This document shows, in pieces, positions 4,077 through 35,047 of a stretch of DNA of 36,028 nt. Below the pieces are notes generated by a model. That model had not been told where the DNA came from, did no database searches, and saw nothing but the letters and a program-made list of their open reading frames with translations. The DNA comes from Bacillota bacterium. GTDB taxonomy: Bacteria; Bacillota; Bacilli; Alicyclobacillales; SLC66. Each line of letters begins with the position of its first letter. Position 1 is the stretch's first letter. The DNA lies in NCBI GenBank assembly GCA_021793015.1, contig JAJYTO010000009.1:1-36028 (forward strand), given 5' to 3'. Made by a program: the position numbers and the translations under genes.

Positions 4077-4242
4077 AAGAGGTCTATAATGACGGTAACC
4101 GGTTCGTTGTATACGCATCCATCAAAACGAATGCGAAATGGTTGCGGGATAGACATTCATGCCTGAGTTTTGCGAAGCAAAATCTCACTTGCGCACCATC
4201 AACAACCGGGAAGAAAATGCGCCTGCGGCGATTCTCGGACTT

Positions 4243-4328
4243 GAACGGCTCATGCATGCCGATGCAGCGAGTATTAGCGGCCGTTAGGCCGCGGCTGTCT
4301 GAGCGGCAGCGGCATGCATGAGCCGTTC
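4243..4328. repeat. Large nested palindrome downstream of the Tad operon
   Basis: Perfect 18-base inverted arms GAACGGCTCATGCATGCC (4243-4260) and its complement at 4311-4328 enclose 50 bases, which contain a second hairpin GCGGCC-GTTA-GGCCGC (about 4277-4292). There is no following T-run, so it is not a canonical terminator, although it sits where a tad-operon transcript would end. A BIME-like repeat or a remnant of a small mobile element is also possible. The rest of the 4077-4394 gap shows no convincing gene. Confidence 0.75.
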
Positions 4329-13263: not shown

Positions 13264-14496
13264 CTACGCCGTCGTGCCAGCGCCCGAACTGGAGGCTGAC
13301 GAAGAATGGGGCTCCGGAGACTTCCATGTCTGACTGAGGAAGTGAGAGACGGCCGTGCTTTGCTGTGTGGCCAACCATTGGGTGAGTTGCTGCGTCAGGG
13401 TCGACGGACTCACGTTCTGCGCTTGAGCCACCTGCGTCACGCTCTTCCCGGATTGCAGATCGGTCATCAGGGTGTTCGGGGACAGCTTCAGAAGTGTGGC
13501 GGTTTCGCCCAGCAGTCCACCGTCGGCCATTCCGTGTCTACCTTTGCCATGCGGTTTCTGTCCGATGCCCGGCCCAGTCTGAGAGCCATCGGAATGTGCA
13601 GGGAACACTTGATTGACAAAGTGGGAAATCGATGTGCTTTGTCGCTGCGCCGCCCACTGTTCCAGTTCCTGCGTCAGTGTCTGCGGGCTCACGCTTTGCG
13701 CCTGAGCCACCTGCGCCACGCTCTTCCCAGATCGCAGATCGTTCATCAGAGTGGTCGGGGACAGCTTCAGGAGCGTCGCCGTTTCCTTGGACAGTCCACC
13801 GCCGATCATGCCGGGTCCCCATGGTCCAAAGGCTTTCATGCCAGCATGAGGTTTCGGTTGAGAGTGGTTGGACGGCGCATGGAACGTCTGACTGAGGAAG
13901 TGAGAGACGGTCGTGCTTTGCTGCGTCGCCAACCATTGGGTGAGCTGCTGCGTCAGGGTCGACAGACCCGTGCTTTGCGCCTGCGCCACCTGCGCCACGG
14001 TCTTACCGGATCGCAGATCGGTCATCAGGGTGCTCGGGGACAGCTTCAGAAGTGTGGCGGCTTCGCCCAGCAGTCCGCCAGCGGCCATCCCGTGTCTGCC
14101 TTTACCACCCGGTTTCTGTCCGGCGCCCGCCTTCATCATGGGGCTGCCAGGATGTGCGGGGAACATTCGATTCACATACTTGGAGATTGATGTATTTTGT
14201 TGCTGCGTCAGCCATTTCCCCAGTTCCTGTGTCAGTGTCTGCGGGCTCACGTTCTGGGCCTGCGCCACCTGCGCCACGCTCTTTCCTGATCGCAGATCGG
14301 TCATCAGAGCGGCCGGGGACAGCTTCAGGAGTGTGGAAGTCTCACCCAACAGTCCACCGTCGGCCATTCCCCAGTGAGGTTGTTTCGTCGTCGTTGATCC
14401 AGCGGCAAATGCGCTGGTGGCTCCCATCGTGATCGTAACCGCCGTTGCGGCGCCGATCATGGATAGTTTCAGCATGCGATGAGAATGAAATTGCAT
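13264..14496 (-). CDS. Secreted protein with four tandem helical repeats
   Basis: 410-residue exported protein. The signal peptide (basic start, hydrophobic MIGAATAVTITMGATSAFA) probably ends at AFA-AG near residue 32. Four repeats follow at about 48-110, 140-203, 234-297 and 328-390. Each contains GLLGETATLLKLSP, then TLMTDLRSGKSVAQVAQAQ and a TLTQxLxxW segment. The core pattern 'LxxGKSxAQxAxAxxVSxxTL' resembles helical repeats in many secreted Bacillota and Actinobacteria proteins, but the function is unknown. Repeats alternate in type (A-B-A-B). Gly/Pro/His-rich linkers separate them. ATG 14496 is preferred over ATG 14505 because CTCCC (minus-strand GGGAG) abuts the latter but lies nine bases from the former. 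No anchor motif is visible. Confidence 0.8.
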   Translation of the reverse strand: MQFHSHRMLKLSMIGAATAVTITMGATSAFAAGSTTTKQPHWGMADGGLLGETSTLLKLSPAALMTDLRSGKSVAQVAQAQNVSPQTLTQELGKWLTQQQNTSISKYVNRMFPAHPGSPMMKAGAGQKPGGKGRHGMAAGGLLGEAATLLKLSPSTLMTDLRSGKTVAQVAQAQSTGLSTLTQQLTQWLATQQSTTVSHFLSQTFHAPSNHSQPKPHAGMKAFGPWGPGMIGGGLSKETATLLKLSPTTLMNDLRSGKSVAQVAQAQSVSPQTLTQELEQWAAQRQSTSISHFVNQVFPAHSDGSQTGPGIGQKPHGKGRHGMADGGLLGETATLLKLSPNTLMTDLQSGKSVTQVAQAQNVSPSTLTQQLTQWLATQQSTAVSHFLSQTWKSPEPHSSSASSSGAGTTA

Positions 14497-15048
14497 TCCG
14501 TCCATCTCCCTTAGAGAATTTTGGCTGTCTCAGTATCTTGACGTGCCTTGTTTGAAAAACGCGACCGCCGTCGCGACAAGAGCGGATGCCGCCTATCCCA
14601 TTTGAGCGATGAACGCGCACGCATACATGTTATTCCTTTCATCCCTGATTTGATCAATCCTGTGTTGCTTTCACTGAGGCGGCATTGGACTGATACTGGG
14701 CATTGAATGCGATGCTGTACTCATCATGGATTTGACTCCCAAGATGTTGCATTAACCTTCTGGCAAAGGACGGGCCCTGTCCTTCACAAAACCCATTTTG
14801 AATGGATAACTTTTAGATTCCCTTGAAAAAACGGAACGACACGATTCGTTCATACTCCTCTTGGTGAGCGGTATATTTGCCCACACTGCGGAACTTCACT
14901 CTGGGTTGATATTGTGCCTGTATCGGGCGAACATCCGCAGGATTTCCGATGGACATTTCCAGTTCCAAATAAGCTGCTTGACCACTGAAGACATTGGCGT
15001 CCGATGCAAACGCATCTCCTCATTTCAGGCAAAATGGATCACGATAGC
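14497..15048. other. 552-base intergenic stretch without a confident gene
   Basis: Lies between the MarR gene and the repeat-protein gene, both on the minus strand, so it must hold the promoter of the latter; no clear -35/-10 pair stands out. One palindrome AAGGAC-N7-GTCCTT is at 14766-14784. A 32-codon minus-strand frame (14752 to 14654) behind AGAAGG has coding-like composition but a too-short SD spacing. Nothing else is supported. Confidence 0.4.
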
Positions 15049-23816: not shown

Positions 23817-24994
23817 CTATGATTTACTGAGGTAAATCATATCCCAATATTGTAAACTGGGAACCGTGAATGTCACATAACTTCCCCCGCTGTCCTGACC
23901 TGTCGTGTAACTCACCTCGTAGCTCTTTCCGTTCTGATAATCCGGAGAAGCCCATGCGACGCTGCTGACTGTGCCGCTTCCATAATAGTACTTCACCGAC
24001 ACATTACTCAGAGCGGTCGGGGTCGGATAAGTGGCATCCAAATCCTGTACGGGCCCGTTTGCGCCCGTACGGTATCGACATCCGACTGCACGGCAGCCAA
24101 CGAGCTGTCAATCGCTAGGTAATAGTACAGAGTGGTCGTGCCGTTTGCGGGAATGGTGACCTTATTCTCGAATCCCGCATCCAGGTCGGACCCTGTCAGG
24201 CTCGCGTTATTGGGCAGAACGCCCGAGTTGTCGAAGGCGTACCAAGCGCCCACTGTCGGGTCACTCGTATCGGAATTCGAGTCATTGCCAACCTGATAGG
24301 AGGTTGGCGCCTGCAGTGCGCCGAACGCCATATAATACTGACCGCTGGCTGACATGTTGTTAAAAATCGCGTTGCGTGTGGCATCATAATACGCCGTTTG
24401 GGTGCTGGAAGAGTTCTTGTTGCTGAAATGAACCTGATCCAACACATTCCACGTAATGGGGCTGCTGGTCGTGTTGGTGAGCGTGTATTGAACCACCACG
24501 AAATTCTCGTTGGGAACCATCGCATAATTGCGCGAAATGGAGACGGGGAGGGAGGACCCGCTGTAAGTTAGGTACTGGGAGTTCAGTATGCCACTCGACT
24601 CCAGGTAGCCGTTTGACGCAAAGTTGTGAATTTGGTCGTACTTGACGGCATTCGTTTCGTCTCGGAAGAATCCAGAGTAGTCCACGATTTGATTCGTCGG
24701 CCAATCGGAAGCATAGTGAAATTCGCCCAATCGCGGGCCATAATTGCTGGTATCGTTTTGATTCAACATGCTGGCCATCCAAATGCCCATGATGTTGCTC
24801 CAGTTCGACATATACAGACTGGCCGCCGAAGTGGAAGAGGGGTTTGTCGTTGTCAGCGCATCAACTTGCGGTAGTGAATTCATGCTGCTCACCTCGTTGT
24901 GGTTGTCTCCGTTGCTGATTGTTCGCAACAGGCCAAACCACCTCGTATTTAGGATGCTGTCGGTCCAGGGAGAAAGCGGTTCGCCTTCACGCAA
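23817..24994 (-). pseudogene. Broken GH15-like/GH66-tail glycosidase gene
   Basis: Two frames form one ruin. The first (24994, or ATG 24883 with GAGGTGA, down to about 24045) encodes a beta-sandwich domain like the N-terminal part of GH15 glucoamylase/glucodextranase enzymes (RLGEFHYASDW, DYSGFFRDETNAV, FVVVQYTLTNTTSSPITWNV) and stops where the catalytic domain should begin, after VRAQTG. The second, one frame away (24041 to 23817), encodes VSVKYYYG...SPDYQNG...FTVPSLQYWDMIYL, the C-terminal tail of GH66 enzymes, closely matching the end of the secreted dextranase at 33197-35047. The catalytic parts of both ancestors are missing. A deletion joining two tandem genes is the likeliest origin. 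No signal peptide is seen. Confidence 0.75.
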
Positions 24995-25058: not shown

Positions 25059-25062
25059 GAAC

Positions 25063-25094
25063 AACTTACTACAGGTATCATCGAAAGTAAATAG
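25063..25094 (-). promoter_or_regulatory. Minus-strand promoter/operator of the broken glycosidase gene
   Basis: On the minus strand CTATTTACTTTCGA (25094-25081) contains the -35-like TTTACT, followed after a 17-base spacer by TAAGTT (25068-25063). The sequence is closely matched in inverted orientation by 25195-25226, including a TGTAGTA just before or at the -10. It is the promoter copy serving the decayed divergent gene. Confidence 0.6.
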
Positions 25095-25194
25095 GCAAGA
25101 CGGCAATGAAGACAGGTTACAAAATTACAAGATTTATAGTAATTTCTCAGTGTTTGCACCTGAATAAGAAGGCCGATCACAGACCTGGAATAGA

Positions 25195-25226
25195 CTATTT
25201 ACTTTCGACGGTGAGTGTAGTATGTT
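25195..25226 (+). promoter_or_regulatory. Promoter/operator of the dextran-utilisation operon
   Basis: CTATTTACTTTCGA (25195-25208) contains TTTACT (25198-25203); a 17-base spacer leads to TATGTT (25221-25226), about 100 bases upstream of the binding-protein gene. The 14-mer is the exact reverse complement of 25081-25094. Since both copies cover a -35 box, the 14-mer may be the operator of the ROK repressor encoded in the operon (inference). Confidence 0.6.
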
Positions 25227-25326
25227 ATTTTCAATGGGGGGTGGTTGTAGTATTTCCTGAGTCACATGTGGGCAAGAACGTGTAAGGAACTACTGCATCA
25301 AACCAAAAAATCACGGGGGTGTTTGT

Positions 25327-26616
25327 GTGAAAGGTAAACGCTTTCTTCCTGCTTTGGCCACGCTGATGGCTCTTGGCGCGATGACCGGCTTGACCGGTGC
25401 GGCCGCCGCACAAAGGACGCCAGTTCGTCGTACGTCGGCGCCAATTACCATCACGTTCTGGAATGCATACAATGCGACTGACAATGAGGAAAAGACAATT
25501 GTCAAAGATATCATCCCTGCTTTTGAGAGGAGCCATCCGGGGATCAAGGTACAAAACGTTACGCTCCCGTACAGCGCGATGCAGCAAAAACTGCTGACAT
25601 CCGCCGCTGGCGGCGTACTGCCGGACGTCGCTCGGTTGGATATCATCTGGACGCCGCAATTGGCGAAACTGGGAACTCTGATGGTGCAGAACAACCTGCC
25701 CGGATTTGCCGCCCTCAGCAAGAAGGTGTTTCCTGGTCCGCTGTCCACCAACCTGTATAATGGAAAGTACTACGGGCTGCCTCTTGATACCAACACGACG
25801 GTGCTGTTTACTAATACCGCCGTTCTCGCCAAACATGGCATTAAGCAGCCGCCCAGAACGATGGCGCAGTTTATCGCCGATATCAAGAAAATGACAGGCG
25901 GCCAGGGCAAGACCAAGACGTTTGGGTATATGGATGGAGGCGGAACCGATCTGTGGGGTTTGGTGCCGTGGATTTCGTCCTTTGGCGGCTCCGTCCTGAG
26001 TCCCAATTTGAAGACCGCCAACGGGTATCTCAACGGTCCGAAAACCGTGCGCGCCATCACCACACTGATCAGTCTGAGCAAGGCAGGGTACATAACGGGG
26101 CTCCTGCCTGGCGCCAACGGCGACCTGACAGGTCTTGCGCAGGGGCAATATGCGATGATCAACGAAGGGCCCTGGGACGTGCCAACCATGCAGCAGCAGT
26201 ATCCAAAAGTTCATTATAAGATGTCCCTGTTCCCGGCCGGACTGGGGGGATCTCGCAGCGTTGTGGGCGGCGAGGACATTGGCGTGTTTAATACGAATCC
26301 CGCGCATGAAAAGGCAGCCTGGGCGTTCGAAAAGTTCATGATGTCGCCGTACGCGCAGTCGCTGATGCAGGCGGCGGGCCAGATGTCCACGCTCAAAAAC
26401 CTGCCCCCTTCGCCGGTGCTGAAGGGCCTCGCTTATTACAATGTGTTTCGCAAGCAACTGAATACGGCCGTGGCCCGACCATCCATCCCGAACTACAGTC
26501 AGGTGGACACGGACATCAGCAACGCAGTTACATTGGCCGCCCAGGGCAAGGAATCGGTCAAAGCGGCGCTGGACCAAGCAACACAGCAGGTGGACGCGCT
26601 CTTGGCCTCCAACTGA
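25327..26616 (+). CDS. ABC sugar-binding protein (family 1), dextran/isomalto-oligosaccharide operon
   Basis: 429-residue extracellular solute-binding protein: ITITFWNAYNATDNEEKTIV after the signal peptide, AGGVLPDVARLDIIWTPQLA and GQYAMINEGPWDVP are typical of MalE/MsmE-like proteins. It should deliver oligosaccharides to the two permeases downstream. The N-terminal signal (MKGKRFLPALATLMALGAMT) has no lipobox cysteine, and the whole protein contains no cysteine, which is unusual for a Gram-positive binding protein normally held as a lipoprotein. GTG 25327 follows GGGGGTG at about 25314-25320. The neighbouring GH66 and GH13_31 genes point to alpha-1,6-glucans as ligand. Confidence 0.88.
   Translation: MKGKRFLPALATLMALGAMTGLTGAAAAQRTPVRRTSAPITITFWNAYNATDNEEKTIVKDIIPAFERSHPGIKVQNVTLPYSAMQQKLLTSAAGGVLPDVARLDIIWTPQLAKLGTLMVQNNLPGFAALSKKVFPGPLSTNLYNGKYYGLPLDTNTTVLFTNTAVLAKHGIKQPPRTMAQFIADIKKMTGGQGKTKTFGYMDGGGTDLWGLVPWISSFGGSVLSPNLKTANGYLNGPKTVRAITTLISLSKAGYITGLLPGANGDLTGLAQGQYAMINEGPWDVPTMQQQYPKVHYKMSLFPAGLGGSRSVVGGEDIGVFNTNPAHEKAAWAFEKFMMSPYAQSLMQAAGQMSTLKNLPPSPVLKGLAYYNVFRKQLNTAVARPSIPNYSQVDTDISNAVTLAAQGKESVKAALDQATQQVDALLASN
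25333..25346. promoter_or_regulatory. Candidate CcpA cre site at the start of the binding-protein gene
   Basis: GGTAAACGCTTTCT agrees with the cre consensus TGWAANCGNTNWCA at all positions except the first and last, and overlaps codons 3-7 of the gene. A cre site here would block transcription when glucose is abundant. The same bases encode part of the signal peptide (K-R-F-L), so coincidence cannot be excluded. Confidence 0.5.
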
Positions 26617-26697
26617 TTCGTGGCTTTAGAGCCGCAAACGGGGCGGGGTCGAGGTCAAGACTCCGCTCTTGTCTTTACACACGAGCGAGGGATACTC

Positions 26698-27912
26698 ATG
26701 GGAATTGCCAAAGCGGATCGCAAACTGATGAGAGAGATCAACAACATGCAAGTGCTGCAACGTATTCGGGCGCAGGAACCAATATCGCGGCCGCAACTGG
26801 CGGAGCAGACCGGTCTGGGACTGTCCACCATCGGAAACATTGTGACGGAACTGCTGGACAACAAGCTCGTTCGCGAAGTGGGGGAAGGCGATTCCAGCGG
26901 GGGCCGGAGACCGGGCCTGCTGAAGATCAATGAATCCGCTCGCTACGCCTTCGGTGTGAAGATCGGCGCCCAGCAGGCGTGGATCTCACTCTTTGATCTG
27001 TGTGCACGACAATTGGAGATGGTCGAAGTTTCGTTTGAGAAAGAAGATGCCCCCGCTGTCGTGGTTGGACTGATTGCGGCGCGTGTCGAAGAACTGAGAA
27101 AAGCCCATCGGTTGACCAAGCGATCAATTCTCGGCCTTGGAATCAGCACGTCTGGACTCATCGATCCGCAGACAGGCGCCTGCCGCTATAGCCCCATCCT
27201 CGGTTGGAGCGATGTACCCATTCGAGCTGCCCTTGAAGAGCTTCTCAAGCTGGATGTAATCGTTGAAAATGACGTGAATGCATTTGCATACGGGATTTTG
27301 CTCCAGGAATCGGTCGCCGCGACGCGCAACATGATCTGCATCACCACAGGACCGGGCGTTGGGGCAGGCATCATTTTGAACAGGCGCCTGTATCGCGGCA
27401 GTTGCGGCGGCGCTGGAGAATTCGGACATATGACGATCGACAGGCACGGTCCTCTATGCACATGCGGGCGCCGCGGTTGTCTGGAGGTGCTGGCGTCCGA
27501 CCAGTTTCTGATGGCAAGGGCCCGCGAGATGGCGGCGGCAGGGGAATCGACCCTGCTCGAGAGCATGGTTGACGAAGGAAAGTTATCGCCAACCACCTTG
27601 TATTATGCGGCGCAAGTCGGAGATGAAGCAGTTCGGTCGCTGTATAGGGAATTGGGCGAAAACCTCGGCTGCGGGGTGACCGACCTGATCAACTTGTTCA
27701 ACCCCGACAAGATCGTCATCGGCGGCGAAGGAGCCGTCGCGGCCAAGTTTTTTCTGGATGCCGTTCGGGACGTGGTGGCCAAGTCCGTATTTCCCCATCT
27801 GGCCGATCAGGTGGAGATCGTGGTGGACGACGGCAGTGAGGACGTGTGGCTGCAGGGTGCGGCCATGTTGGTGATCGAGCGATTCTTTGAAGTTCCCCTG
27901 GCCGCGTATTGA
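26698..27912 (+). CDS. ROK-family transcriptional repressor
   Basis: 404-residue XylR/NagC-type regulator. An N-terminal winged helix (ISRPQLAEQTGLGLSTIGNI, about 26-45) is followed by a ROK sugar-binding domain with ENDVNAFAYG, GAGEFGHM and a zinc motif CTCGRRGCLE. The ATP-binding D-x-G-G-T motif of ROK kinases is replaced by FGVKIGAQQA, as in regulators that bind but do not phosphorylate sugar. ATG 26698 has GCGAGGG upstream; the in-frame GTG 26620 is unsupported and would give an over-long N-terminus. Lying between the binding-protein and permease genes, it most likely represses this operon until an alpha-1,6-linked sugar or glucose derivative binds. Confidence 0.88.
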   Translation: MGIAKADRKLMREINNMQVLQRIRAQEPISRPQLAEQTGLGLSTIGNIVTELLDNKLVREVGEGDSSGGRRPGLLKINESARYAFGVKIGAQQAWISLFDLCARQLEMVEVSFEKEDAPAVVVGLIAARVEELRKAHRLTKRSILGLGISTSGLIDPQTGACRYSPILGWSDVPIRAALEELLKLDVIVENDVNAFAYGILLQESVAATRNMICITTGPGVGAGIILNRRLYRGSCGGAGEFGHMTIDRHGPLCTCGRRGCLEVLASDQFLMARAREMAAAGESTLLESMVDEGKLSPTTLYYAAQVGDEAVRSLYRELGENLGCGVTDLINLFNPDKIVIGGEGAVAAKFFLDAVRDVVAKSVFPHLADQVEIVVDDGSEDVWLQGAAMLVIERFFEVPLAAY

Positions 27913-27937
27913 TGCTCTCTTTGGTGGAGGTGGAGAT

Positions 27938-28888
27938 ATGGCCAAGGACACGATTGTGTTCCATAGTGCCCTGCCGTTGCGTCGAAGAAAACAGCGCTTG
28001 TACAGAAGTGTGCGGCATCATGCCGCCATCTATCTGTTTTTGCTTCCTGGGCTCGCTTTTTTTCTTGTTTTTACTACGTATCCCATCCTGTATTCTTTTG
28101 TCATGAGTTTCACCAACTGGCCCATTATGGGCCCCGCGCAGTTCGTGGGGGTGCAAAACTACAGTCAGGTTCTGAACGATCCCATCGTACGCACCGCTTT
28201 TCTCAATGCCATTTTGTACATGGTGGTGTCCGTGCCCCTCCAACTCGGGCTGGGCCTTCTTGTGGCCATCGGACTCGACCGACCCATGCCGGGACGGACG
28301 ACGTTGCGCCTGATCTACTATTTGCCGGTCATCACCTCGTGGGTCGTCGTCACGTACATATTTCAGTACCTCTTCAACACCGACTACGGACTGATCAACT
28401 GGCTCCTGATGTCGATAAACGTCATCCAGTCGCCGATTTCCTGGCTGGCCGATCCCAACAAGGCGATCGTGGTCGCGGCGATTCTTGGATCGTGGAAGGG
28501 CATCGGCTGGGCCATGATGATTTTTCTGGCCGCTCTGCAGGGGGTGCCCGTTGAACTGTACGAGGCGGCGGCGATTGACGGCGCTGGGAAATGGCATTCG
28601 TTCTGGTCAATCACCCTGCCGAGTATTCGCGCTTCCATGTTCTTTGTCACCGTCCTTCTGGTTATGGGCGCCTTTCAGGTGTTCATCCAGATCTACATTC
28701 TGACGGCGGGCGGACCGGCTGACCAGACACAGGTGCCCCTCGTATGGATGTATCAGCAGGCTTTCGCCAATCTGCAGTTCGGCTATGCGAGCGCCTTGTC
28801 CTGGCTGATCGCGGTGCTCATTGTCCTGTTCACCATGGTTCAGTTTTGGATCTTCCGTCCACGCAGCCTGAACGTGAGGGAGGGCTAA
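27938..28888 (+). CDS. ABC sugar permease, MalF/MsmF-like
   Basis: 316-residue inner-membrane permease with six predicted helices. The EAA loop that docks the ATPase is visible as VPVELYEAAAIDGAGKWHSF. ATG 27938 follows GGTGGAGG (27923-27930); an in-frame TTG 27887 overlapping the ROK gene is rejected. It pairs with the permease that starts three bases after its stop. No ATPase gene is in the operon, so a shared MsmX-type ATPase is needed. Confidence 0.92.
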   Translation: MAKDTIVFHSALPLRRRKQRLYRSVRHHAAIYLFLLPGLAFFLVFTTYPILYSFVMSFTNWPIMGPAQFVGVQNYSQVLNDPIVRTAFLNAILYMVVSVPLQLGLGLLVAIGLDRPMPGRTTLRLIYYLPVITSWVVVTYIFQYLFNTDYGLINWLLMSINVIQSPISWLADPNKAIVVAAILGSWKGIGWAMMIFLAALQGVPVELYEAAAIDGAGKWHSFWSITLPSIRASMFFVTVLLVMGAFQVFIQIYILTAGGPADQTQVPLVWMYQQAFANLQFGYASALSWLIAVLIVLFTMVQFWIFRPRSLNVREG

Positions 28889-28891
28889 CAC

Positions 28892-29722
28892 ATGTGGGTC
28901 AACTCAAGGGCGACAACCATCCGCTTTTTGATTCTGTTGACGTTTGCCATTATCATGGCTTTCCCGTTTTGGTATATGGCCGTTGTGTCTCTGGAACCCA
29001 ATCAGCTGTCGCTGCAGTACCCGCCCGTCCTGTTTCCGCAGCATGCGTCGTTTGGCAACTATGTCGGAGCTTGGCAGGCGAATAACTTTGCCGGGTACTT
29101 CATGCGCAGTCTGTATGTGTCGGTCGTCTCGACGTTCTTGGGCACCTTGATCGCGTGCGCTGTGGCGTTTGTTGTGTCGCGTTACCGCTTCTTTGGGCGC
29201 AATGCCATTTACCGCGCTTTCTTGGTATCCATGATGATCCCTGGCATGACGTTTCTCCTGCCGCAGTTCAAATTGATGGAGACATTGGGGTTGCTCAATC
29301 ATTTGTACGGGCTGATCCTGATTTACACGGCTGGCATGATCCCGTTCACGACGTTTCTGATGAAGGGCTTCTTCGATGACATACCCTTGGAACTGGAGGA
29401 TGCCGTGCTCATGGACGGCGGGAGCAAATGGACGCTGTTCGCGCGCGTCGCGATGCCCATGGCGACGCCGTCGCTCGTGACGGCCGTTTTGTTCAACTTC
29501 ATGGGCGGTTGGGATGAATTCACGATGGCCCTGACCTTCCTGCAAAATCCCAACAAATTCACCCTGCCCATTGCCCTGATGTTTTTTCAGGGCCAACACA
29601 GTACGCAGTGGGGAGAGTTTTTCGCGGCCGCTCTCATCCAGACGGCGCCTATCATCATCATGTTCGTGATCTTCCAGCGTTACATCGTGAAAGGAATTAT
29701 GGCTGGCGCCGTGAAGGGGTGA
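28892..29722 (+). CDS. ABC sugar permease, MalG/MsmG-like
   Basis: 276-residue second permease with six predicted helices and EAA loop IPLELEDAVLMDGGSKWTLF. The ATG at 28892 follows GAGGGAGGG (28876-28884). Together with the upstream permease and binding protein it completes the membrane part of a carbohydrate-uptake (CUT1-type) importer. It is followed after seven bases by the cytoplasmic GH66 gene, so uptake and hydrolysis genes are tightly cotranscribed. Confidence 0.92.
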   Translation: MWVNSRATTIRFLILLTFAIIMAFPFWYMAVVSLEPNQLSLQYPPVLFPQHASFGNYVGAWQANNFAGYFMRSLYVSVVSTFLGTLIACAVAFVVSRYRFFGRNAIYRAFLVSMMIPGMTFLLPQFKLMETLGLLNHLYGLILIYTAGMIPFTTFLMKGFFDDIPLELEDAVLMDGGSKWTLFARVAMPMATPSLVTAVLFNFMGGWDEFTMALTFLQNPNKFTLPIALMFFQGQHSTQWGEFFAAALIQTAPIIIMFVIFQRYIVKGIMAGAVKG

Positions 29723-29729
29723 GGACAGG

Positions 29730-31439
29730 TTGAAGACTTCGAAACCGTTTGACGTATTTCCCGTGTACACGCAGTATAGACCCGAGCAATCGGTTCGAGT
29801 GTTTATGGCCATTTCGCAGGACTGCGGCGATGACGATGCTGTGGCGATAACGGTGTTTCACCATCATGCTCGCGTTCGCGCCGTTCGTCTCTCCCTGTCG
29901 GAATTGCGGCGTCAGCAAGGGATTCTTGACCTTGGCGTCTTTTCGGAGGGTGGGTATCATGTGGCCTGCGAGTTGCAACGGACGGAAGGGTCGTGGACGG
30001 CGCGCACCGCGTTCGACGTCAGAGCGCATTGGCGCAACGCTCCTCGTTACAGCTTTCTTTGTAACTTTGCGCCGATCGACCCGCAGGTGAACATGCAAGA
30101 AGACATGCAAGAGAACATGCAGACGTTCTTTCGCCACTTTCACCTGAACGTCACGCAGTTTTATGATTGGATGGAGCGTCACGACGCGCTCGTTCCGAGG
30201 GAGTCGGAGTTTGTGGATCCCATGGGCCGAAAACTCTATACCGAGGGCATCATCTCGCGTATGCAAGCCCTTCGAGAGATCCAGTCCGCGCCAATCGCGT
30301 ACGCGGCGGTATACGCGTCTCTGGCAGACTATGCGCAGACGCATCCGGAACAGGGGATCTATGACAATCAAGGAGTCCAGTACTCGCTGATTGATCGCTT
30401 CTTTCTCATGGACATCTCGGAGGATTCCCTGTGGAGGGAGCATATCCTGGCGGAATTTGGACGAGTGGTGCAGTTCGGGTTTGACGGGTTGCACCTGGAC
30501 CAATATGGCTTTCCAAAATCGGCGCAGAGGCGAAACGGAACAACGATGTGGATGGACGGGGCCTATCTCTCTTTTATCGATGCATGCCGTGAGACATTGG
30601 GCGACCAGACCGGTCTGATCTTCAACGCCGTGTCGGGCTATCCGACCCATGCGGTGAGCGCCTCCGCGCAGGACGCTGTATATGTGGAGGTTTGGCCGCC
30701 TATGGTGCGCTACCGCCACCTGTGCGCGCTCATCGAGAGGGTCCGGCGGGAGGCGGCGGGAACGAAGCAGGTCATCCTGGCGGCGTACCTGAAATCCTTT
30801 GGCGCAAAGCAGGAGACGCGACCCGATGCGATCGCCAGGAGCGCCCTGCTCGTGACGGCCGTGATTTTTGCCAGCGGCGGGTACCATCTGGTGTTGGGCG
30901 AAGCGGGAGGGATGCTGGCGGAGGCCTACTACCCCGACTACAACACCATGGTTCCCGAACTGTATGATCCCCTGCGCGCGATGTACGACATCGTCACCGC
31001 GGACGCGGACCTGCTGTCCGCGCCGGATGTGGTCGATGTGTCCTGGAGCTTTGTCGGCGGGATCAACGAGGAGATGCTCATACAAGGCGCCCCGATTTCC
31101 TTGGAACCGGACATGGGAACGGTGTGGGTGCGCGTGACGCTGACAAAACCGGGGCTAGTCCTGCACTTCATCAACCTGCTGTGGGTGGATCACGAGGAAT
31201 GGAACTCGGTGCACGAGGAACCGTTTCGACCAGCGCCTCCGCTGGATGTATCGATTGAGTGGAATCATCCGGTGGACGGCGTTTTTGTCCAGCGCGCCGA
31301 AGCGCCGGGGTGGATTCGCGCTGACGTGGACTGGACATCGCATGTTCGCGGGAAGGCGTTGCATCTGACGGTGCCTTCGTTTGACGTGTGGTCCATGGTA
31401 TTTGTTCCGTACAACACAGATTCAGAAAGCGTCAAATGA
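29730..31439 (+). CDS. Cytoplasmic GH66-family glucanase (dextranase-like)
   Basis: 569-residue GH66 protein without a signal peptide. GH66 contains endo-dextranases and cycloisomaltooligosaccharide glucanotransferases. The nucleophile is expected in GFDGLHLDQYG (Asp257) and the acid/base in YVEVWPP (Glu320). An N-terminal beta-sandwich (about 1-110) precedes the (beta/alpha)8 barrel (about 115-430); the C-terminal sandwich ends with LHLTVPSFDVWSMVFVPYN, cognate to the tail of the secreted paralogue. The CBM35 insertion of cyclising enzymes is absent. TTG 29730 follows GTGAGGA. Residues 125-136 carry a small MQE(D/N)MQ repeat. A role in hydrolysing imported linear or cyclic isomalto-oligosaccharides is likely, but not shown. 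Confidence 0.85.
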   Translation: MKTSKPFDVFPVYTQYRPEQSVRVFMAISQDCGDDDAVAITVFHHHARVRAVRLSLSELRRQQGILDLGVFSEGGYHVACELQRTEGSWTARTAFDVRAHWRNAPRYSFLCNFAPIDPQVNMQEDMQENMQTFFRHFHLNVTQFYDWMERHDALVPRESEFVDPMGRKLYTEGIISRMQALREIQSAPIAYAAVYASLADYAQTHPEQGIYDNQGVQYSLIDRFFLMDISEDSLWREHILAEFGRVVQFGFDGLHLDQYGFPKSAQRRNGTTMWMDGAYLSFIDACRETLGDQTGLIFNAVSGYPTHAVSASAQDAVYVEVWPPMVRYRHLCALIERVRREAAGTKQVILAAYLKSFGAKQETRPDAIARSALLVTAVIFASGGYHLVLGEAGGMLAEAYYPDYNTMVPELYDPLRAMYDIVTADADLLSAPDVVDVSWSFVGGINEEMLIQGAPISLEPDMGTVWVRVTLTKPGLVLHFINLLWVDHEEWNSVHEEPFRPAPPLDVSIEWNHPVDGVFVQRAEAPGWIRADVDWTSHVRGKALHLTVPSFDVWSMVFVPYNTDSESVK

Positions 31440-31455
31440 TAAGGGTGGGTTGGCA

Positions 31456-33162
31456 ATGCCAGACGAGCGAGTCGAGGATGTCCAGAGGACATGGTGGAAG
31501 GAAGCGGTGGTGTATCAGATCTATCCGCGCAGTTTCATGGATAGCAACGGAGACGGCATCGGTGATTTGCAGGGAATTATCGCGAAGCTTGACTATCTGA
31601 AGTGGCTGGGAATCGACGTCATCTGGCTTAGTCCGGTGTATCGCTCCCCCAATAATGACAATGGGTATGATATCAGCGACTATCGCGGCATCATGGAGGA
31701 CTTTGGCGCCATGAAAGACTTTGACGCGTTGCTGGATGGCCTGCATAGCCGGGGCATGAAACTGGTGATGGATCTTGTGGTGAACCATACTTCGGACGAA
31801 CATCCATGGTTTCTGCAGGCACGAGAGAGCAAAGATAACCCTTTTCGAGATTATTACATTTGGCGGTCGAACGGGAATGGTCAACGCCCCAACAATTGGG
31901 TCTCCTTTTTTGGCGGCTCCGTGTGGGAACTGGACCGGTCGAGCGATGAGTACTATCTGCACCTGTTTTCCGTCAAACAACCCGATCTAAACTGGGACAA
32001 TCCGAATCTGCGAGCGAAGATCCACGACATGATGAGATGGTGGCTGGACAAGGGGGTGGACGGATTTCGGATGGATGTCATCAACGCCATTTCCAAGGTA
32101 CCGGGCCTGCCGAACGCCCCTGGGGAGGACGACCTGGAGTGGGGCGGTTCTTTATTCCTGAACGGTCCTCATGTGCATACCTACTTGCGGGAAATGAACG
32201 CCGAGGTGTTGTCCCGCTACGATATCGTGACCGTGGGCGAGACCCTGTCCGTCACACCGAAAGAAGCTCTGAAGTACGTCGGGTTTAACCGTCAGGAATT
32301 GAACATGGTGTTTCAATTCGAACTGATGGACATCGATTCTGGGTCTGGCGGCAAGTGGGACGTTCAACCGTGGACACTGAGCGAGTTCAAGCGCATCGTC
32401 AGCCGCTGGCAAACGGAGTTGAACGGTCGCGGGTGGAACAGCCTGTATTTGAACAATCACGACCAGCCCCGCCTTGTGTCCCGATTTGGCGATGAGGGGA
32501 CATATCGCGTACAGTCGGCCAAAATGTTGGCGACCCTGCTGCATACTTTGCAGGGGACGCCATTCATCTATCAGGGTGAAGAGATCGGCATGACCAATGT
32601 GCAATTTCCCGATATTGAACACTATCGGGACATTGAGACCCTGAATTGGTATGCGGAACAGATGGACAAAGGAGAACGTCCTGTCACAGCGGTCATGGAG
32701 GCCATTCACCGCAAAGGCCGTGACAACGCCCGAACCCCGATGCAATGGAGCGATGATCCCCAGGCTGGATTCTCGGTGGGGAAGCCGTGGCTTGAGGTCA
32801 ATCCCAACTACCGTGAAATCAATGTCAAGCAACAGATGGAAGATCCTGAATCCGTCTTGAGTTATTATCGGAGATTGATCGAACTTCGGCGAAAAACCCC
32901 CATCCTGACTTACGGTGATTATACATTGGTCAATCCCGACCAGGAAGAGATGTATGTTTTTGCACGGCGGTTGGGGCATGCCCAATTGGTAACCGTATTG
33001 AATTTTACGCCCGAAACACAGACATTCTGTTGGCCTCTGGACATGGCGCCAGAAAATTTCAAACTGATCCTGTGCAACTACGGCTGCGATGACAGCGCGG
33101 CCGACAGGACGGACAGAGCGGTTGACCTGCGCCCCTATGAGGCGAGGGTTTATTTGGCGTGA
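31456..33162 (+). CDS. Oligo-1,6-glucosidase / dextran glucosidase (GH13_31)
   Basis: Cytoplasmic exo-alpha-glucosidase releasing glucose from isomalto-oligosaccharides. The 568-residue protein has DLVVNHTSDEHPWF (region I), GFRMDVIN with nucleophile Asp207, TVGET with Glu262 and NNHDQPR with Asp336. Valine directly after the nucleophile aspartate is the residue associated with alpha-1,6 specificity in this subfamily (alpha-1,4-specific relatives carry Thr). ATG 31456 has AAGGGTGGG (31441-31449); the in-frame TTG at 31381 overlapping the GH66 gene is rejected. It completes the pathway begun by the two GH66 proteins. Confidence 0.93.
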   Translation: MPDERVEDVQRTWWKEAVVYQIYPRSFMDSNGDGIGDLQGIIAKLDYLKWLGIDVIWLSPVYRSPNNDNGYDISDYRGIMEDFGAMKDFDALLDGLHSRGMKLVMDLVVNHTSDEHPWFLQARESKDNPFRDYYIWRSNGNGQRPNNWVSFFGGSVWELDRSSDEYYLHLFSVKQPDLNWDNPNLRAKIHDMMRWWLDKGVDGFRMDVINAISKVPGLPNAPGEDDLEWGGSLFLNGPHVHTYLREMNAEVLSRYDIVTVGETLSVTPKEALKYVGFNRQELNMVFQFELMDIDSGSGGKWDVQPWTLSEFKRIVSRWQTELNGRGWNSLYLNNHDQPRLVSRFGDEGTYRVQSAKMLATLLHTLQGTPFIYQGEEIGMTNVQFPDIEHYRDIETLNWYAEQMDKGERPVTAVMEAIHRKGRDNARTPMQWSDDPQAGFSVGKPWLEVNPNYREINVKQQMEDPESVLSYYRRLIELRRKTPILTYGDYTLVNPDQEEMYVFARRLGHAQLVTVLNFTPETQTFCWPLDMAPENFKLILCNYGCDDSAADRTDRAVDLRPYEARVYLA

Positions 33163-33196
33163 TAACACAGCAGACCGATGCGGGGGGAGATATAAA

Positions 33197-35047
33197 ATGA
33201 GAAACGGTTGGGTGCGCAAGGGGTTGACCATCATGGGCGGCGGAATGCTCCTGATCACGACGCTGGGTTTTTCAACTGTTCCAAAGACCGCTATGCTTGC
33301 TTTGCAAGCAAGCATGACGACAAACAAAGCCCGCTATAATCCTGCAGAGCCCGTCAAATTCAAGGTGACTGTAACGAATCCAAATGATGGGATCTTATCG
33401 GGCAACCTCTATCTTGCTGTGAATCATTTGGGCGAGCCGACAGGATCCCTTTCTCCCCAACGCATTTCCGTGCCGGGCAAGAGTTCGCGCATCTATGTAT
33501 TGACGTGGACTCCTCTCACGAAAGACTACCAGGGATATTTTGTGGGAGGGGTTATACGGTCGCAAGCCGGGTCCATTCTCGCAAGGGTTGCCACGGCGAT
33601 TGACGTTTCATCGAGTTGGGTAAAGTTTCCGCGCTACGGGTTTGTATCCGAGTACCCTCAAATGTCGAGAACAGCGGTGAAACATGAACTGGCTCAACTG
33701 AAAAATTATCATATCGACGGGTTGCAATTCTACGACTGGCAGTGGAAACACGACATTCCGCTGGCGGGAACCGTGTCGCATCCGGCTGCGTCCTGGCATG
33801 ATATAGCCGGGCGCACCAACTATCGACAGACAATTCTCAACATGATTCAGGTGGGACATCAATTAGGCATGGCCTCCTTCAATTACAATCTGATGTACGG
33901 CGCCTGGGCAGGATACCAGACGGACGGCAGCGGCGTGAAGTCTGCCTGGGGCCTCTACTATGACAACGGAGGCGCCCTTCAGGTCAGTGTATCCATGCCC
34001 GCTGGTTGGAGTACAAGCGCCATTGACGTGTTCAACCCCGGTAATTCGGGATGGAGACAGTACATTCTCCATCAGGAGGCCAACGTGTTTAAGACCTATC
34101 CGTTTGATGGCTGGCAGGTGGACCAACTGGGTAATCAAGGAACCGTTTTTGACGCCAAGGGCCAACAAGTTCACTTGCAAGCGACGTTCACTCCGTTCCT
34201 GAATGATGCAGCTCGATTTTTGCGCAAGCAAATCATCTTTAATAACGTAGGGGGGTACGGTTTGCAGTCTGTCGCCGCTCATTCCAATGAATCGGTGGCT
34301 TATGTGGAATGCTGGCCGAATTCAGGACAGGCGACATTCAACGATTTAAAGACGACCATCGACTCAATCAACGCTTTGAGCAAAGGGAAAAAGTCTGCGA
34401 TTCTGGCTGCCTATCTGGACAGCACGTACGCAAACTCCTTTTCTGGACAGAATCCAGGTTATTTTAACAACGCAGGTGTTCTTCTTGCCGATGCGACCAT
34501 TTTTGCCAGCGGCGGAGACCATATTGAACTCGGCGACAATCTACAGATGTTGAACGCGCCGTATTTCCCGAATCACAACCTGATCATGGACGCTGCTCTT
34601 AAAGCGAAATTGCTGTCCTACTATAACTTTATGGTGGCTTATGAAAATCTGCTTCGCGGAGGGCTGGTGAACACGGAAAACAGTGTGGCGCTTCACGGAC
34701 TGAAGGTCAGCCAGGATGGGTTGCCACAGACAGTTTGGGCATTCACCAAAGCGGGAGGCGGGTATGAGGTGATTCAACTAATCAACCTGTACCGACAGAC
34801 AACGAATTTATGGCAGGATTCGTCCGCCAGCACGCCGACGCCTCCGACATTTCACAACGTTCAGGTTAAGTATTACGTTGGACAGGAGAAGGTCCAGGGT
34901 GTCTATGCGGCCTCTCCTGATTTTCAAAACGGGGCCGCTACGCAACTGAAGTACACATACTCCGTATCCAAGGGGAAAAGATACATCTCCTTCACGGTTC
35001 CAAGCCTGCAGTACTGGGATATGATTTATCTGAAAAAGACAACGTGA
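33197..35047 (+). CDS. Secreted GH66 dextranase
   Basis: 616-residue exported enzyme that should cut alpha-1,6-linked glucan outside the cell. The signal peptide (VRKGLTIMGGGMLLITTLGF) probably ends near residue 33. An N-terminal beta-sandwich (TNKARYNPAEPVKFKVTVTN) precedes the barrel, with nucleophile Asp309 in FDGWQVDQLGNQG and acid/base Glu371 in YVECWPN. The C-terminal sandwich ends FTVPSLQYWDMIYLKKTT. The CBM35 insert typical of cycloisomaltooligosaccharide glucanotransferases is absent and the protein is far shorter, favouring plain dextranase. ATG 33197 follows GGGGGGAG (33182-33189). No cell-wall sorting motif is present, so it is probably released. Confidence 0.9.
   Translation: MRNGWVRKGLTIMGGGMLLITTLGFSTVPKTAMLALQASMTTNKARYNPAEPVKFKVTVTNPNDGILSGNLYLAVNHLGEPTGSLSPQRISVPGKSSRIYVLTWTPLTKDYQGYFVGGVIRSQAGSILARVATAIDVSSSWVKFPRYGFVSEYPQMSRTAVKHELAQLKNYHIDGLQFYDWQWKHDIPLAGTVSHPAASWHDIAGRTNYRQTILNMIQVGHQLGMASFNYNLMYGAWAGYQTDGSGVKSAWGLYYDNGGALQVSVSMPAGWSTSAIDVFNPGNSGWRQYILHQEANVFKTYPFDGWQVDQLGNQGTVFDAKGQQVHLQATFTPFLNDAARFLRKQIIFNNVGGYGLQSVAAHSNESVAYVECWPNSGQATFNDLKTTIDSINALSKGKKSAILAAYLDSTYANSFSGQNPGYFNNAGVLLADATIFASGGDHIELGDNLQMLNAPYFPNHNLIMDAALKAKLLSYYNFMVAYENLLRGGLVNTENSVALHGLKVSQDGLPQTVWAFTKAGGGYEVIQLINLYRQTTNLWQDSSASTPTPPTFHNVQVKYYVGQEKVQGVYAASPDFQNGAATQLKYTYSVSKGKRYISFTVPSLQYWDMIYLKKTT

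Follow-up and report, generated by a model that had tools for sequence, protein, structure and literature searches.

A mirror-image pair of predicted ROK operators between a dextran operon and a decayed gene in a Bacillota genome

Two near-identical promoter-like elements lie back to back between a dextran operon and a broken gene, raising the questions of which regulator they serve and why there are two of them. The elements were analysed within a stretch of 36,028 nucleotides (the window) from a 3.8-Mb, 321-contig Bacillota genome (G000:C317); the nearest named records at the locus are MAG JA1.bin52 and Alicyclobacillus acidiphilus. The dextran operon (25327-35047, plus strand) encodes a sugar-binding protein, a ROK repressor, two permeases, and GH66, GH13 and GH66 enzymes. 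The features considered here are:

23859-24882, minus strand: decayed left gene; by sequence comparisons, a GH15 dextran-dextrinase-like N-domain, then a GH66 C-terminus in another frame.
25067-25091, minus strand: predicted left operator core, TTTACTTT-N10-TGTAGTA, in the arm 25060-25094, with -35-like TTTACT and -10-like TAAGTT; 15/15 core bases kept in the sister species (genome G001).
25095-25194, no strand: spacer between the arms, which diverges freely; 61 of 108 alignment columns match the sister species, and indels occur.
25198-25222, plus strand: predicted right operator core, TTTACTTT-N10-TGTAGTA, in the arm 25195-25229, overlapping the presumed dextran-operon promoter TTTACT-N17-TATGTT; 15/15 core positions unchanged in both the sister species and A. 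acidiphilus.
25228-25252, plus strand: degenerate third match with three mismatches, TGTGGTA in the sister species, within a predicted leader stem.
25327-26616, plus strand: sugar-binding protein of an ABC importer, first gene of the operon (PF13416/PF01547); orthologues at 91% in G001 and 71% in A. acidiphilus.
26620-27912, plus strand: ROK repressor, proposed binder of both operators (PF00480 and NagC/Mlc models; closest solved protein Lmo0178, 5f7p/5f7q), with helix GLGLSTIGNIV; start probably the ATG at 26698.
27887-35047, plus strand: remaining operon genes (two permeases, GH66, GH13, GH66), from profile matches.

The sequence-only reading had described a 14-mer, CTATTTACTTTCGA, present as exact inverted copies, and this was confirmed: the copies occupy 25081-25094 (minus strand) and 25195-25208 (plus strand), with 100 bases between them. 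The TTTACT hexamer, the 17-base spacer, the second hexamer (TATGTT on the right, TAAGTT on the left) and the common TGTAGTA were also all as described. The 14-mers sit within a 35-nt inverted repeat (25060-25094 and 25195-25229) that is identical at 28 of 35 positions and is the sole inverted repeat of such quality at a separation of up to 200 bp in the whole 36-kb window. The best inverted repeats in six shuffled windows reached only 22-24/35, and the observation of a mirror pair therefore stands. Both window sites are of the inverted-repeat type expected of ROK operators (about 25-29 bp, T-rich at the 5' end and A-rich at the 3' end), a type seen most clearly in A. acidiphilus; in the window the outer arms pair at 6/7 positions on the left and 5/7 on the right.

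Orthologous operons are present in the sister genome G001 and in A. acidiphilus (G047). The sister genome carries both arms, and A. acidiphilus has one site, the counterpart of the right arm. When these five sites were aligned, the core TTTACTTT-N10-TGTAGTA proved invariant. The window and G001 agreed at 30/30 core positions of the two arms and at 12/20 N10 positions (Fisher p = 2e-4), while the inter-arm spacer, at 61/108 with gaps, fell below the 78-85% identity of fourfold-degenerate sites in three operon genes (the fourth, 29730-31439, being left out of this comparison). Because the cores are kept while the N10 bases and the spacer drift, both arms are constrained. The A. acidiphilus site, CTTTACTTTATTCGATGAATGTAGTAAAG, is a near-palindrome with an exact core upstream of the orthologous operon, and pairs at 11/14 positions, a level attained by 0.02% of 29-mers.

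The same comparison bears on whether the repeat could instead be a structural hairpin or mark the ends of a small mobile element. With 100 bp between its inverted arms and a synteny break alongside, where the left neighbours of the two species differ, it would suit such an explanation; however, the interior drifts freely between species, the right arm stands alone at the A. acidiphilus operon and no further copies occur in the 3.8-Mb genome. As no Rfam family matched, neither a riboswitch nor another known RNA was recognized, and this explanation as a whole is scarcely credible. The degenerate match at 25228-25252 is probably not a third operator: it has three mismatches, is lost in the sister species and is better read as one arm of a leader stem (TGTAGTA...TACTGCA), itself weakly supported (RNA z of -1.7 in the window and -0.4 in the sister species). 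The leader of the sugar-binding-protein gene (25230-25326) is conserved like coding sequence (84/97) and is able to fold into a stem that takes in this apparent third TGTAGTA copy.

The second gene of the dextran operon encodes a wing-HTH ROK repressor, the sole regulator seen in the operon, and among 59 genomes of the order its orthologue (at least 68%) occurs only in the three that bear both operon and motif. The earlier proposal of a duplicated control element under one shared regulator, this ROK protein, is well supported by the presence of the motif at the orthologous operon in three species. It gains further from three distant ROK repressors that belong to the recognition-helix class of the window protein, are 37-38% identical to it and carry the palindrome TTACTTTmTTCAATGAAnCAAGTwA 30-40 bp upstream of their own genes. 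Two of these were examined by a motif-blind palindrome search upstream of the ROK gene, in G132 (38-39% to the window ROK) and G292 (37%, and 52% to Lmo0178); the palindromes found, ACTTACTTTATTCAATGAAGCAAGT and AACTTACTTTCTTCAATGAAGCAAGTAAGTT, correspond base by base to the A. acidiphilus site.

Larger searches gave a similar picture. In about 1 Mb of ROK loci scanned at up to two mismatches there were 11 strand-counted matches, at four independent places, and none in shuffles. The symmetric form was met at seven places in 399 genomes of the class, three of which (G292, G132 and G111) precede a ROK gene by 30-40 bp, each in another genus and each gene encoding a protein 37-38% identical to the window ROK. 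Across whole genomes a reversed control pattern was at least as common as the symmetric motif, so the evidence for a ROK operator is position, not abundance. The window sites themselves fit the general palindrome poorly at the centre, and their link to it goes via A. acidiphilus and the sister species. Motif copies in the Bacillus ROK loci L087-L099 were AT-rich or coding chance matches only, and the viral contigs searched held no relative of the window ROK protein.

The palindrome also follows the type of protein. The window ROK and the palindrome-bearing Bacilli ROKs share a recognition helix of the form [GS]LST[IV], and other ROKs have NKATVSS- or TPPTVSS-like helices; several of the latter types carry an XylR-like TTTGTTTGTT upstream. 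As distant ROKs of the same class carry the palindrome before their own genes, the core element is very probably the operator of the dextran-operon ROK protein. In Dictyobacter aurantiacus (L095 5928-5952) a perfect palindrome, TTACTTATTTCAAAGAAATAAGTAA, a two-mismatch form of the motif, also precedes a ROK gene by about 25 bp, which suggests that this operator type extends well beyond the Bacilli.

The motif might alternatively be the site of another sugar regulator, or the shared core of two similar sigma-A promoters. TTTACT-N17-TAnnnT is promoter-like, a related dextran locus in the Bacilli genome G104 has an adjacent LacI-type gene, and the relative G004 has an exact core between lysA and ribD, with no evident connection to ROK (probably a chance occurrence). 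The invariant bases, however, form the dyad TACT...AGTA while the -10 hexamer varies (TATGTT, TAAGTT, TAAAGT), the palindrome recurs before ROK genes in three other genera, and no regulator other than ROK was seen in the operon; this alternative is quite improbable.

As promoters the two elements are weak. The hexamers (TTTACT-N17-TATGTT on the right, TTTACT-N17-TAAGTT on the left and TTTACT-N17-TAAAGT in A. acidiphilus) match the sigma-70 consensus at 8/12, 7/12 and 8/12 positions, respectively, and a consensus scan of the window at 9/12 or better reported neither the right nor the left promoter. As the hexamers overlap the operator arms, they are not independent evidence of promoters; since they largely coincide with the two half-sites, there may be no promoter at the left element, which could be just an operator. 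What supports the earlier claim of two outward-facing promoters is sequence resemblance, in weak hexamers that are largely operator half-sites. From its position and conservation, it is a reasonable inference that the right element drives the dextran operon. About 10 bases upstream of the motif in A. acidiphilus (L025) there is a cre-like sequence, TGAAAACGCTTTAC, with two mismatches to TGWAARCGYTWNCA and overlapping the -35 hexamer, which suggests CcpA control in that species. The only cre-like match with two mismatches in the window falls within the first codons (25333).

The regulon looks local and confined to one locus, because no other copy of the motif with up to one mismatch occurs in the 3.8-Mb genome, where matches with two or three mismatches were fewer than in the control. 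Further copies near other alpha-glucan genes, which a multi-locus regulon would have, were therefore not found. A one-mismatch site in the sister genome (G001:C92) adjoins an ABC gene with no sugar link seen.

The gene at the left is broken, as had been claimed. Its open frame, P0001 (24008-24994, likely ATG start at 24882), encodes an N-domain fragment that ends at a stop; across some 270 residues it shares 46-48% identity with the front of proteins in two other Bacilli, and it resembles dextran dextrinase (PDB 9ju0, E=3.6e-14). Those relatives have open frames of up to about 920 aa, and one of them stands beside GH66-type dextran genes. Beyond the stop, the C-terminus of a GH66 enzyme (PF13199 positions 477-537, E=5.9e-12), 48% identical to the operon's own GH66, is encoded in a different frame. 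A deletion fusing two adjacent dextran-enzyme genes would explain this structure. In G001 the left neighbour is instead an ABC exporter set (L024 12323-17922; ATPase, membrane-fusion-like protein, FtsX-like permease and ATPase) that is transcribed away from the dextran operon; this arrangement is peculiar to the sister genome, the set being absent from 20 other relatives. Since the left element is kept in two species with different left genes, it has outlasted at least one neighbour exchange, and since one of those genes is unrelated, it need not serve to drive the left gene.

The left element might then be an auxiliary ROK operator without a promoter, one that makes the dextran operon more tightly repressed through looping or a higher local repressor concentration and is kept for that added repression whatever gene stands at its left. 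Its exact conservation beside different neighbours would fit such a role, as would its -10-like TAAGTT, which matches only 3/6 consensus positions yet is identical to an operator arm in G292 (AGTAAGTT), and the greater palindromicity of the left copy in both the window and the sister species (outer arms 6/7 vs 4-5/7). Similarity to G001, however, runs on past the left arm and through the leader to about 25015, the start of the G001 left gene, and the gene that adjoins the left element in the window is what remains of dextran enzymes, as a co-regulated divergent unit predicts. The centre-to-centre distance is also not constant: it is 131 bp (about 12.5 turns) in the window and 129 bp (about 12.3 turns) in the sister species, assuming 10.5 bp per turn (a weak test, as the in-vivo repeat may differ); helical phase does not support looping, and other cooperation remains compatible with this spacing. 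An auxiliary role is accordingly possible but somewhat unlikely.

The reading preferred here, and held to be probable, is that the mirror elements are two operators for the ROK repressor of the dextran operon, the left being an older duplicate that likely lay over a former leftward promoter. What computation established is the sequences themselves, how far they are conserved and that the palindrome goes with a ROK class; from this, binding, repression, the inducer and promoter activity on either side are inferred. A ROK dimer would sit on an imperfect palindrome with half-sites TTTACTTT and TGTAGTA(A), covering the -35 to -10 region and blocking RNA polymerase; ROK sites that overlap promoter elements have been read as repressor sites in other Firmicutes (PMC8579813). 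A dextran-derived sugar, such as an isomalto-oligosaccharide, would release the repressor, and the operon, including the repressor gene, would then be induced by its own substrate. The right operator would control the dextran operon. The left, facing the other way, would most likely have covered the leftward promoter of a former divergent unit of dextran enzymes (GH15 and GH66), now collapsed in the window genome. The unrelated exporter in the sister species runs counter to a divergent unit purely specific to dextran, and the single site in A. acidiphilus also counts against the preferred reading. It is conceivable, if doubtful, that the left operator is kept for its own sake, acting on the dextran operon or capturing whatever gene adjoins it; a two-way switch would then persist next to an unrelated exporter in the sister species and next to the decayed fusion of dextran enzymes in the window.

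Several known systems invite comparison. NagC and Mlc of Escherichia coli belong to the same family as the window ROK; their half-sites are T-rich (TTATTT), and NagC has two operators between the divergent nag operons and forms a loop, which the 131/129 bp spacing here does not favour. The best solved full-length match to the window ROK is Lmo0178 of Listeria monocytogenes (PDB 5f7p/5f7q/5f7r, E=3e-68). It has been described as a regulator of alpha-glucan breakdown (PMC9104551), and the gene of its nearest relative among these proteins, that of G292, has the same palindrome directly upstream and ABC-importer genes alongside. The window ROK differs in being only about a third identical to Lmo0178, in the place of its gene, second in an operon for dextran use (GH66/GH13), and in having two predicted mirrored operators.

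XylR of Bacillus and Paenibacillus is also a ROK repressor with a 25-bp-class inverted-repeat operator, the edges of which are important, in a bidirectional sugar-operon promoter region (PMC9104551, PMC2873477). Its half-sites, though, are of the GTTT/TTAGTTTGTTT type (PMC9104551), its helix is NKATVSS-like and it has one shared operator region instead of two mirrored copies; half-sites of the XylR type (GTTT...AAAC / TTAGTTTGTTT) are absent from the window sites, which have TTTACTTT and TGTAGTA. RokB of Streptomyces coelicolor recognizes a 28-bp inverted repeat (TTTGTTC-N11-GAACAAA) and has two sites in its own divergent promoter region (PMC4856308), but the half-site differs, and the RokB regulon is multi-locus while that of the window ROK is apparently restricted to one locus.

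ROK control of a sugar operon is of a known kind, and in this case site and protein can be matched with unusual clarity; a literature search found no paper describing the present ROK/dextran system. The comparison yields a concrete predicted operator, in general form TTACTTTmTTCrATGAAnnnAGTAA, for a ROK clade that includes the solved Lmo0178, tied to a recognition-helix class distinct from that of XylR. Such an operator sequence could help to predict which regulators govern alpha-1,6-glucan use in uncultured Bacillota, and the left element would provide an example of a control element that survived loss of the adjacent gene.

Other features of the window were noted in passing. Positions 4140-4245 hold a dispersed repeat of about 95 bp, not an Rfam family, with at least 44 matches at 83-96% identity in the genome; one copy lies inside an ABC ATPase open frame in the sister genome (L024:17247-17334). 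Positions 13264-14505 encode a 413-aa protein with several HTH domains of different Pfam families, resembling repeated HTH modules.
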